Assembly: GCA_003647765.1 (NCBI GenBank)
Contig: QMNM01000052.1
Coordinates: 1-8,051, forward strand
Source: Candidatus Cloacimonadota bacterium
GTDB lineage: Bacteria > Cloacimonadota > Cloacimonadia > JGIOTU-2 > B8-G9
Direction of reading: 5' to 3'
Length of the DNA stretch: 8,051 nucleotides
Below are positions 231 to 4,523 of this stretch, piece after piece. Positions within the stretch are counted from its first letter, which is position 1, and every line of letters starts with the position of its first letter. A program made the translations under genes and the position numbers. Under the pieces are notes generated by a model. That model was given only the letters and a program-made list of their open reading frames with translations. It was not told the origin of the DNA and made no database searches.

Positions 231-1781
231 ATGTCAGATAAACAAACAGCCGCAATTGTTTTAGCCGCAGGAAAAGGGACAAGAATGAAGTCAAGTCATC
301 CAAAGGTTACATTCCCTTTAGCCGGCATTCCATTGATTGAAAGAGTTGTGATGACTTTACAAAATATTAGTATTGATAACATTGCTATTGTAGTAGGTTA
401 CAAAAAAGATGAGGTTATATCTTGCGTTTCACCAATGCAAAATGTATTCTTCATTGAACAAAAAGAGCAGTTAGGCACTGGTAATGCTGTTGCTATTTGT
501 AAGGATTACTTTAAAGATTTTAATGGATATATATTCATTTTAGCTGGTGATGTCCCGCTTCTTACGACTGATACTTTATCAAAATTAAAAGAGAAACATA
601 TACAAACTAATGCAGATGCAACAGTATTAACTGCTATTTTAGATGATGCTAAAATGTATGGTAGAATCATCCGTGATAAAGATGGAAATGTGGAAAGAAT
701 CGTTGAGTTCAAAGATGCCAATGAACAAGAAAGAGAAATCAAGGAGATAAATACTGGTATATTTTGTTTTAATTCCCCTGCACTTTTTTCAGCAGTCGTA
801 AAGATTGATAATAACAACAAACAAAAAGAATATTATCTAACTGATACTTTGGAAATATTGAAAAGAAGCGGAATGAAAGTTTCAGCACAAATTGTAGAAG
901 ACCCAACTGAAACAAGTGGTGTTAATTCCCAGCTACATCTTGCAGAACTTGAACAAAAATTGTATGAGAAAATAAAAGAGCATTTTCTTAATAATGGTGT
1001 TGTTATTGAAAATCCACAAACCGTTATTATTGAGGATAGAGTAAAAATAGAAAATGATGTGCATATTTATCCGAATTGTATTATTCGCGGCAAAACAGTT
1101 ATAAAATCAGGTTCTAATATTGGGGCTAATAGTGTAATTATAAATAGCATTCTCAATAATAATGTGCAATTGGAAGGGTTTAATTTTTTGGAAGGGTGTG
1201 AAATTCCTTCAAATACAAAATTACAGCCATTTAAGGTTTTGATAAATCAGTCCTATGTCCAAATGAATAGTACGCAAAGATTATATTCACCCTGGCGAAT
1301 GGATTATATCAAAAGTGAGAAGACGGATAAGTGCATTTTATGTAATAAAGTCAATGAAGGTTCAGTAAAAGATCAGGATAATAATGACAAAAAGCAGCTT
1401 ATACTTTATCGTGGAAAATATTCTTATGTAATTATGAATCTATATCCGTATAATAATGGGCATCTAATGGTTGTTCCTTATAAGCATTGTGCTATTATAG
1501 AAAATCTTTCTGATGATGAATTATTAGAGATGATACGACTATTGAAAAAATCAGTGATGGTTCTAAAAGAGGTATATCATCCTGATGGCTTTAATATCGG
1601 GATGAATATAGGTACTTCTGCTGGTGCAGGAATCCCAGAACATTTACATATACATATAGTTCCTCGTTGGAACGGTGATACGAATTTTATCACTACAACT
1701 GGGCTTACACGAGTTATACCAGAAGATTTCAATAAGTCATTCGCTAAATTGAAAAAAGTATTTGTTAAAAAGACAAGATAA
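231..1781 (+). CDS. glmU: GlmU-type UDP-GlcNAc pyrophosphorylase with truncated beta-helix, fused to a HIT-family domain
   Basis: The N-terminal domain (residues 1 to about 230) is a GT-A-fold uridylyltransferase that makes UDP-GlcNAc from UTP and GlcNAc-1-phosphate. It has LAAGKGTRM (11-19, R18), PK at 24-25 (K25), EQLGTGNAV (79-87), AGDVPL (105-110, metal ligand D107), YGRI (143-146), EINTGIF (172-178), EYYLTD (200-205) and GVNS (230-233). Residues about 256-335 are a few left-handed beta-helix coils. They stop at LQPFKVL, which corresponds to the 'IGPFARLRPG' region of normal GlmU, so the acetyltransferase active-site residues further on are absent. From residue 345 a complete HIT domain follows: RLYSPWRMDYI (350-360), CILC (368-371), NNGHLMVVPYKH (408-419) and the triad-bearing HLHIHIV (471-477). 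This part resembles Ap4A phosphorylase/hydrolase-like HIT proteins. At 516 aa the protein is longer than GlmU (about 450) despite the lost helix. The ATG has an AGGGGA at 218-223, seven bases upstream. The acetyltransferase step is presumably done elsewhere. Confidence 0.9.
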   Translation: MSDKQTAAIVLAAGKGTRMKSSHPKVTFPLAGIPLIERVVMTLQNISIDNIAIVVGYKKDEVISCVSPMQNVFFIEQKEQLGTGNAVAICKDYFKDFNGYIFILAGDVPLLTTDTLSKLKEKHIQTNADATVLTAILDDAKMYGRIIRDKDGNVERIVEFKDANEQEREIKEINTGIFCFNSPALFSAVVKIDNNNKQKEYYLTDTLEILKRSGMKVSAQIVEDPTETSGVNSQLHLAELEQKLYEKIKEHFLNNGVVIENPQTVIIEDRVKIENDVHIYPNCIIRGKTVIKSGSNIGANSVIINSILNNNVQLEGFNFLEGCEIPSNTKLQPFKVLINQSYVQMNSTQRLYSPWRMDYIKSEKTDKCILCNKVNEGSVKDQDNNDKKQLILYRGKYSYVIMNLYPYNNGHLMVVPYKHCAIIENLSDDELLEMIRLLKKSVMVLKEVYHPDGFNIGMNIGTSAGAGIPEHLHIHIVPRWNGDTNFITTTGLTRVIPEDFNKSFAKLKKVFVKKTR

Positions 1782-1821: not shown

Positions 1822-2268
1822 TTGTATAGTAAATGGATTCTTTTAATAAATTTACTCTTATTATTGGTTTCGTGTAATCATTCCAAAAAAGAGAAGGATA
1901 AAGCACGGTTTATAGTTGAGAATTTGCCATATTCTATACAAGTATTAAATGGAGTTGGAAAGCCAGGATTAGGGAAAGCTGTAAGGAATGACTTGATTTC
2001 ACGAGGATTTAATATTATGGATTACAGGAATGCGAGACATTTTATTTATAATAAGACCGTAATTATTATTAGAAGTGAAGATAACAAAATAGATGTAAAT
2101 AAATTAAAGAATGCACTTGGAATAAAAAAGATATACTATCAAATAAAAGAGAACTCTGATTATGACTTACAAATCATAGTTGGTAGAGATTATAGAGATA
2201 TTTTTCCATCTATCAATAGCCAGATGGGACAATTAAGTGAAAAAAATAACAGTAAAGAAAGGTGGTAA
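1822..2268 (+). CDS. Small lipoprotein with a LytR C-terminal-type (LytR_C) domain
   Basis: The 148-aa product begins with a lipoprotein signal peptide: a basic start, a leucine-rich core (residues 7-15) and a lipobox L15-V-S-C18. Export and lipid attachment at C18 are thus likely. After a charged linker (21-29) comes one globular domain of about 38-126. It has SIQVLNGVGKPGLG (38-51), a helix ending in LISRGFNI (58-65), and a closing strand LQIIVGRDYRD (116-126). This matches the LytR_C (CpsA/LytR C-terminal) pattern of 'VxVLNGtGxxGLA..L...GF.v......D..IxxGkD'. The catalytic LytR-CpsA-Psr phosphotransferase domain is absent, so it should not be called a wall-polymer ligase; its actual role is unknown. 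It starts 40 bases after glmU-HIT, and its stop abuts the rsfS start, which indicates cotranscription with at least rsfS. The start is TTG. Confidence 0.75.
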   Translation: MYSKWILLINLLLLLVSCNHSKKEKDKARFIVENLPYSIQVLNGVGKPGLGKAVRNDLISRGFNIMDYRNARHFIYNKTVIIIRSEDNKIDVNKLKNALGIKKIYYQIKENSDYDLQIIVGRDYRDIFPSINSQMGQLSEKNNSKERW

Positions 2269-2658
2269 ATGAGTAAGGATTTAGAAGAAAAAATGCGAAA
2301 GTTGATTCATTTTGCTTTTGAAAAGAAAGCACAGAATTTGATAGTATTTAATTTGCAAGGTAAATCTGTTCTTACAGATTTTTTAATTATATGCAGTGGA
2401 CAGGGAGAGATGCATACAAAAGCAATAGCTAAGAATGTGATATTAAAAGCTAAAGAACATGGAATCCATCTTGATCATAATGAGGGTTTGGAAAATGGAC
2501 AATGGATATTGCTTGATTTTATAGATGTTATTGTTCATATTTTTGAACAGAAAAAGAGAGAATTTTATAAGTTAGAAGAGCTATGGGAGTGTATACCTCA
2601 ATTAAAATTTGTAGATGAGGAGAGCAAAATAGAGTTTTTCAGTCATCGTGAACCTTGA
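2269..2658 (+). CDS. rsfS: Ribosomal silencing factor RsfS (YbeB/Iojap family)
   Basis: RsfS binds ribosomal protein uL14 on the 50S subunit and blocks joining with 30S, slowing translation in starvation. The 129-aa product has the family's usual length and landmarks: an N-terminal helix (2-20) with KKAQNLIVFNL (19-29), TDFLIICSG (36-44, normally T-D-[YF]-F-[VI]-I-x-[ST]-G), a helix through 49-63, and GQWILLDFIDVIVHIF (77-92), then REFYKLEELW (97-106). The D-F-I-D-V-I-V-H-I-F core is nearly canonical; the Ile at residue 85 sits where Gly is common. The ATG follows the TAA of the upstream gene with no gap. An AGGTGG at 2259-2264, inside the upstream coding end, supplies the ribosome site, so translational coupling is likely. 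A LytR-type gene beside rsfS is a recurring bacterial arrangement. Confidence 0.93.
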   Translation: MSKDLEEKMRKLIHFAFEKKAQNLIVFNLQGKSVLTDFLIICSGQGEMHTKAIAKNVILKAKEHGIHLDHNEGLENGQWILLDFIDVIVHIFEQKKREFYKLEELWECIPQLKFVDEESKIEFFSHREP

Positions 2659-2867: not shown

Positions 2868-4523
2868 ATGTTTCAGAACTATCTTAAACTTAGAATAGTA
2901 AAAATTTTAGATAAATTAAAGATAAAATATAGTAAAGCAGATAATATATCATTAAAATATCCATCACCGGAATTTGGTGATTATGCCACAAATGCAGCTC
3001 TTGTTCTATCAAAAAAGAACAAGATAAAACCTATGATATTAGCAAAAAGAATTGCTGTAAGATTAGCTAAGGATAAAAAAGTAGACAAAGTAAAAGTTGC
3101 AAAACCAGGATTTGTTAATATAACTTTAAAGAAAAAACTTTATCGTGAAGTATTACAAACAATTCAAGAAGAAAATAGTGAATTTGGCTCTGATAAGCAA
3201 TTTGGTCAAAATAAAAAGGTATTAGTGGAGTTTGTTAGTGCTAATCCAACAGGACCTCTTAATATAGTCAATGCAAGAGCTGCTGCGTTTGGTGATACTT
3301 TTGTTAGGTTGCTGAAATTTCTTGGATATAATGCTTACAGCGAATTTTACATCAATGATGCTGGTAATCAAGTAGATATTTTAGTTGAGTCCGTAGAATT
3401 GCGTTATAGACAGCTCTCAGGTGAAAGTATTATTTATCCAGAGGAAGCATATCAAGGTGAATATATCAAAAATATCGCACTTAAAATTTATCTTAAATAT
3501 GGGATAAAATTACTAAATCTATCAAAAAAGGAAAGATTTAATGAACTACTAGAAAATTCCTTAAATATAGTATTAAATGAACAAGTAAAGGACTTGAAAA
3601 AATTTAATGTTACATTTGACAACTGGATATCTGAGCGCAAGTTGCGCGATAAAGGTTATATTGAGGATGTGCTTACTTATTTAGCAGAAAAGGGCTACAC
3701 CTATGAAAAAGATGGAGCTATCTGGTTCACTTCAAGTAAATTTGGTGATGATAAGGATAGGGTATTAATGAAGACAGATGGGAATGTTACTTATTTTGTT
3801 CCTGATGTAGCATATCATCTTACTAAATATGAGCGAGGTTATGAATTACTTTATGATTTATTTGGTCCTGACCACCAGGGGCATGTGCCACGATTGAAAG
3901 CTGCGATTACTGCATTGGGATACCCTGCTGACATATTAAAAATCATATATCTTCAACAAGTGAACTTCTTTTCAAAAGGCAAAAAGATAAAGATGTCAAA
4001 ACGAAAAGGGGCTATATACCGTATGCGCAATTTAATTGAAGAGGTTGGAACTGATGTAGCTAGATTTTTCTTTTTAATGAGACGCGCTAATAGTCATCTT
4101 GACTTTGATATAGAACTAGCAAAAACACAATCTGTTGAAAATCCTGTATATTATGTTCAATATGCTCATGCCAGAATTTGCAGTATTATTAGAAAAGCCA
4201 AAATGAAAAATTTCACACTTAACAAATTCAAACCTGATTATTTACAAAGATTAAAAGAGAAGTTGGAGTTCCAAATTATTAGAGAACTATCCCGTTTTCC
4301 AGAAATTCTCAAAATTGCTGCTATTACTACCGAGCTGAATATCTTGACTCAATATCTAACAGATTTAGCAACTTTATTTCACAATTATTATCATAAAATT
4401 CCTATTATTAATTCTGATGACACAGAACTGACCATGGCAAGACTTTATCTGATTAGTTCTGTGAAGATAGTTTTGGTCAATTGTCTACACTTATTAGGAA
4501 TTTCTGCACCAAAAAAAATGTAA
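2868..4523 (+). CDS. argS: Arginyl-tRNA synthetase (class I)
   Basis: This cytosolic enzyme charges tRNA-Arg with arginine using ATP. At 551 aa it is full length. The N-terminal additional domain (about 1-110) includes FGDYATNAAL (36-45) and KPGFVNI (79-85). The Rossmann core begins at VEFVSANPTGPL (120-131) and continues into AFGDTF and EFYINDAGNQVD. The KMSKS loop reads KMSKR (375-379), followed by EEVGTDVARFFFLMR and HLDFD. The anticodon-binding DALR domain starts around VENPVYYVQYAHARI and ends in the family-typical LLGISAPKKM. The oddity is the HIGH signature, where the expected H-[IV]-G-H is N132-I-V-N135. The rest of the catalytic core is well kept, so I infer a working clade variant rather than a dead enzyme. 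A strong AGGAGG supports the ATG. It is probably transcribed from the preceding 209-base spacer. Confidence 0.96.
   Translation: MFQNYLKLRIVKILDKLKIKYSKADNISLKYPSPEFGDYATNAALVLSKKNKIKPMILAKRIAVRLAKDKKVDKVKVAKPGFVNITLKKKLYREVLQTIQEENSEFGSDKQFGQNKKVLVEFVSANPTGPLNIVNARAAAFGDTFVRLLKFLGYNAYSEFYINDAGNQVDILVESVELRYRQLSGESIIYPEEAYQGEYIKNIALKIYLKYGIKLLNLSKKERFNELLENSLNIVLNEQVKDLKKFNVTFDNWISERKLRDKGYIEDVLTYLAEKGYTYEKDGAIWFTSSKFGDDKDRVLMKTDGNVTYFVPDVAYHLTKYERGYELLYDLFGPDHQGHVPRLKAAITALGYPADILKIIYLQQVNFFSKGKKIKMSKRKGAIYRMRNLIEEVGTDVARFFFLMRRANSHLDFDIELAKTQSVENPVYYVQYAHARICSIIRKAKMKNFTLNKFKPDYLQRLKEKLEFQIIRELSRFPEILKIAAITTELNILTQYLTDLATLFHNYYHKIPIINSDDTELTMARLYLISSVKIVLVNCLHLLGISAPKKM

Follow-up and report, generated by a model that had tools for sequence, protein, structure and literature searches.

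Probable loss of a single stop codon joins a conserved glmU-hit gene pair into one open frame in a Cloacimonadota draft genome

A stretch of 8,051 nucleotides from a Cloacimonadota bacterium (the window) was examined in the present study and contains an uninterrupted open reading frame at positions 231-1781 that carries a GlmU-type uridylyltransferase and a HIT domain in a chain of 516 residues. The window corresponds to contig C78 in a draft genome (G000; 1.97 Mb in 360 contigs, 88.8% complete), in which the fused protein, used as a query, has no second match. We consider it probable that the loss of one stop codon joined a glmU-N/hit operon pair into a single chain with two independently working domains. 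The fusion is a one-genome event with an ordinary cause and not a new system; taken alone it matters little, being an example of one lost stop turning a tightly packed gene pair into a two-domain protein. The conserved pair is of more interest than the fusion: a pyrophosphorylase-only GlmU encoded directly before an Ap4A-phosphorylase-like HIT protein across Cloacimonadota opens to test a possible link between the supply of cell-wall sugar and the clearance of dinucleotides.

The single frame and its domains had been called in an earlier note on this DNA, with coordinates that are correct and calls that open-frame analysis and Pfam, NCBIfam and PDB matches bear out. The features of the fused gene are listed below, with nucleotide positions in the window and residue or model positions in brackets.

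231-1781, forward strand: fused open reading frame, 516 residues, no internal stops
231-980, forward strand: GlmU-type uridylyltransferase (UDP-GlcNAc pyrophosphorylase) domain (Pfam NTP_transferase 8-219, NCBIfam glmU models, PDB GlmU structures, motifs)
984-1235, forward strand: truncated left-handed beta-helix (LbH), without the GlmU acetyltransferase half (Hexapep 271-304; TIGR01173 match ends at 337 of 452)
1236-1262, forward strand: junction linker, in or beside which the glmU stop of relatives falls (tail alignment and junction read-outs)
1263-1781, forward strand: Rv2613c-type (Ap4A phosphorylase) HIT domain, containing CILC and HLHIHIVPRW and beginning at the old start codon ATG (Pfam HIT; phmmer to 3ano, 3wo5 and 6af2; NF052622)

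Domain composition of the 516-residue chain

In the chain, a GlmU-type uridylyltransferase occupies residues 1 to ~250 and is followed by a short beta-helix at ~255-335 and by a complete HIT domain, the last extending over 387-479 by Pfam and over 345-516 by homology. The N-terminal part has both the domain and the motifs of a GlmU-type uridylyltransferase (LAAGKGTRM, QxGTG, GDxPL, YGR, IVExKDA, E-N-G and YLTD), of which the forms LAAGKGTRMKS, QLGTG, GDVPLL, YGRI, EINTG and YYLTD are common to relatives. GlmU structures align over residues 7-337 in a PDB search (E 8e-62), and the nucleotidyltransferase domain is well modelled in the structure prediction. NCBIfam glmU models match residues 7-345, but the match accounts for just 2-337 of the 452 model positions, and the scores of these models stay under the cut-offs because the acetyltransferase half is absent. 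For TIGR01173, which describes the bifunctional UDP-GlcNAc pyrophosphorylase/GlcN-1-P acetyltransferase, the score is 347.5 bits against an equivalog cut-off of 366.85, and the C-terminal half required of that enzyme is missing. The window protein thus shares with bifunctional GlmU the uridylyltransferase domain, the start of the LbH and the motifs, but has a HIT domain in place of the acetyltransferase half; the "short beta-helix" of the earlier note is present, and is this truncated LbH domain. In extent, the GlmU part equals the 331-residue GlmU used in crystallography (1fwy, 1fxj), a man-made truncation that leaves the nucleotidyltransferase with a few LbH turns; those proteins are without a HIT domain, whereas the window protein has one. 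Since the GlmU motifs are kept and the protein is the sole query match, it is probably the UDP-GlcNAc pyrophosphorylase of this draft.

The truncation is common to the window protein and the Cloacimonadota relatives searched, with no TIGR01173 match above cut-off in any of 30 genomes. The best GlmU matches in these genomes are all without the acetyltransferase half, and in two families the LbH is absent as well. With this half missing from the best matches of the 30 genomes, the GlcN-1-phosphate acetyltransferase must be a different protein.

The HIT part scores 54.9 bits against PF01230 (cut-off 21.5) and contains both motifs that had been reported for it, CxxC as CILC and the HxHxHxx triad as HLHIHIVPRW. 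Its closest kin appear to be the Rv2613c Ap4A phosphorylases, not HinT or Fhit. A PDB search with the whole chain aligned the mycobacterial AP-4-A phosphorylase (3ano, 3wo5) over residues 338-499 (E 6e-42), and phmmer with the HIT part alone aligned 3ano over residues 3-155 (E 3e-42), the mycobacterial enzymes being the nearest solved homologues. The best-scoring family model, the actinobacterial equivalog model NF052622, gave 168.4 bits, under its cut-off of 290, so the HIT part resembles the Rv2613c type by sequence and is not filed as an equivalog. The alignment spans almost the entire HIT domain, and HxHxHxxPRW and a GTSAG stretch are in common, but the mycobacterial enzyme is stand-alone where the window HIT domain is fused, and the latter differs in CILC, in an insertion of 7 residues compared with its kin, and in AG before the triad where 3ano has GS. 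According to Mori et al. (as cited in PMC7705103), the M. tuberculosis Ap4A phosphorylase is active as a phosphorylase and has a true HIT triad. Among the substrates suggested in the earlier note, Ap4A agrees with this kinship as far as sequence goes and HinT-like AMP-NH2 hydrolysis becomes less likely, while the proposed link to GalT stands as superfamily kinship, but a distant one only.

Arrangement of glmU and hit in relatives

A total of 124 genomes of the class were surveyed, a phylum-wide search giving an equal number. Although 118 of the 124 yielded a match, an uninterrupted frame through both domains was found in G000, the sole member of its family among the genomes searched, and in none of the 123 other class genomes; every other match spanning both domains was interrupted by at least one stop, so that the fused genes do not form a conserved family. 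The earlier note had left a choice between the same fusion and two adjacent genes in related genomes, and had regarded two separate genes, with this copy an assembly artefact, as fatal to its reading; of this, the two-gene part is what we found, glmU-N and hit being separate and adjacent in all 54 relatives whose junction DNA was read. In 19 of these, hit starts within glmU with an overlap of 8 nt (ATGAATAA type), in three the overlap is one base, and in six the hit ATG abuts the glmU stop in frame, with TAA or TGA immediately before it. Open-frame lengths of ~420 had pointed to many fused relatives, a reading that was rejected as the DNA shows a glmU/hit stop in every one.

The glmU-hit pairing is a property of the Cloacimonadota phylum and near-absent elsewhere among the loci examined: outside the phylum, only one of 76 further HIT loci (L090) had a nearby GlmU-like NTP transferase within the flanks examined. 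A literature search found neither a GlmU and HIT domain fusion nor a paper on Cloacimonadota and UDP-N-acetylglucosamine; the absence of the fusion elsewhere applies to the genomes and loci examined. Shared frames of other kinds were seen at two HIT loci: the NTP transferase of L090 is joined to PanC (pantoate ligase) in an open frame that overlaps the HIT gene (L090:2473-4621), and in an Abditibacteriota genome an Rv2613c-type HIT domain shares one with a RibF-like FAD synthetase/riboflavin kinase (L062:734-2254).

Origin and product of the fused frame

Tails and motifs were aligned using read-through rows of the relatives. From PF onward the window tail aligns without gaps to that of one relative, L121 (PFKVLINQSYV-Q-M versus PFRSTTIEEYV-stop-M), and CAA at 1260-1262 is paired with the TAA found immediately before the hit ATG of L121. 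There is no inserted linker sequence at the junction, and the hit ATG stands at the position expected from relatives. On this alignment one T-to-C change would suffice for the fusion, and an indel of one base near 1236-1242 could create it just as well. A reading-frame profile test on the variable tails gave 486.2, 485.9 and 485.7, all inside the random-tail range. The resemblance of ATGAATAG at 1263 to the 8-nt stop/start overlap was rejected as proof of a frameshift origin, as this pattern also follows the start codon in several non-overlapping relatives and the L121 alignment, free of gaps, agrees no less well with TAA to CAA.

We propose that an operon pair conserved across Cloacimonadota, a monofunctional glmU-N followed immediately by hit, the latter predicted to encode an Rv2613c-type dinucleoside-polyphosphate phosphorylase, lost its only intervening stop in the lineage of this genome, either through a base substitution, TAA to CAA for instance, or through an indel of one base. 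This would most likely yield a single 516-residue chain with two independently working enzymes, a GlmU domain predicted to form UDP-GlcNAc from UTP and GlcNAc-1-P and a HIT domain predicted to phosphorolyse Ap4A-like nucleotides. In the structure model of the whole chain both domains are mostly confident, residues 333-362 score under 50 and the pTM is 0.53, a low-confidence junction being as expected for two independent domains.

The foremost alternative is an error of consensus or assembly, or a variant of a minority strain, with glmU and hit separate in the organism itself as they are in its relatives. We regard this as possible but unlikely. The fused reading is unreplicated and the draft is fragmented, and when 334 kb of it was compared with 1.08 Mb from a single relative of the same order, four matches had internal stops, of which one is convincing:

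L176:1337-2917 (G000:C71), reverse strand: hutH-like gene, single internal TAA (comparison with same-order relative)

This homologue, presumably hutH from its sequence motifs, is 527 residues long and 72% identical to that of the relative, with one TAA replacing Ser inside the conserved GDLAPISHI. It may be a fresh pseudogene or contain a wrong base, and in the latter case the base call at the glmU stop may be wrong as well. Against such an error, the 69 homologous genes compared (61.7 kb) contained no frameshift candidates and only this one convincing internal stop, and the window's remaining genes have open frames.

Stop loss yielding one chain is likewise to be weighed against continued production of two polypeptides, the HIT part arising by internal initiation at ATG 1263. 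The ancestral hit start codon is retained, but, in agreement with the earlier note, which saw no clear ribosome site there, a Shine-Dalgarno-like sequence is absent upstream (cagtcctatgtccaa), and the overlap or abutment in relatives points to coupling with termination at a glmU stop that the fused gene no longer has. We consider internal initiation improbable.

Neighbouring genes and functional coupling

The fused gene is followed by three further genes of the same cluster, in the same order as in two relatives (L002, L003).

1822-2268, forward strand: LytR_C-domain protein starting at TTG, first of the three (family scan)
2269-2658, forward strand: RsfS ribosomal silencing factor
2868-4523, forward strand: argS-like gene (name based on sequence appearance and position)

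In four Cloacimonadota genomes from three families, a single open frame holds HPPK (folK) together with glmU (L003:1987-3468, L010:1501-3090, L110:1333-2715 and L125:1018-2514). As in the window, glmU is joined in frame with an operon neighbour, but there the partner is the upstream HPPK and hit remains a separate gene. An AAGGAGG-like site precedes the glmU start in L010, so separate initiation is possible even there. As glmU shares a frame with an unrelated folate gene in these relatives, neighbours can join without a shared pathway, and neighbour fusion in Cloacimonadota looks opportunistic.

These observations bear on the functional coupling proposed in the earlier note, for which direct support goes no further than the conserved adjacency. 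Under such a coupling, a bifunctional enzyme would have been selected and fixed in this lineage, with the pairing of its genes across the phylum as a hint: its HIT domain would clear dinucleoside polyphosphates (e.g. Up4A) made by the uridylyltransferase, or Ap4A status would feed back on UDP-GlcNAc supply. Yeast UTP:glucose-1-phosphate uridylyltransferase is among the listed makers of Up4N (PMC7705103, Table 1), which makes by-product clearing by HIT conceivable, and the pair is adjacent in every relative read and near-absent from the other loci examined. However, two separate chains suffice in relatives, the cluster also holds lytR_C, rsfS and the argS-like gene without a shared pathway, folK-glmU frames arise without any such link, and the literature found does not show GlmU itself as a maker of Up4N; we consider selection for coupling very improbable.

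Just upstream of the fused gene, positions 118-200 of the window hold a palindromic element with arms ATTGCACTTTT and AAAAGTGCAAT and an inner sequence ACCGCAAAGACGCAAAG; four partial copies elsewhere in the genome mark it as a dispersed repeat.
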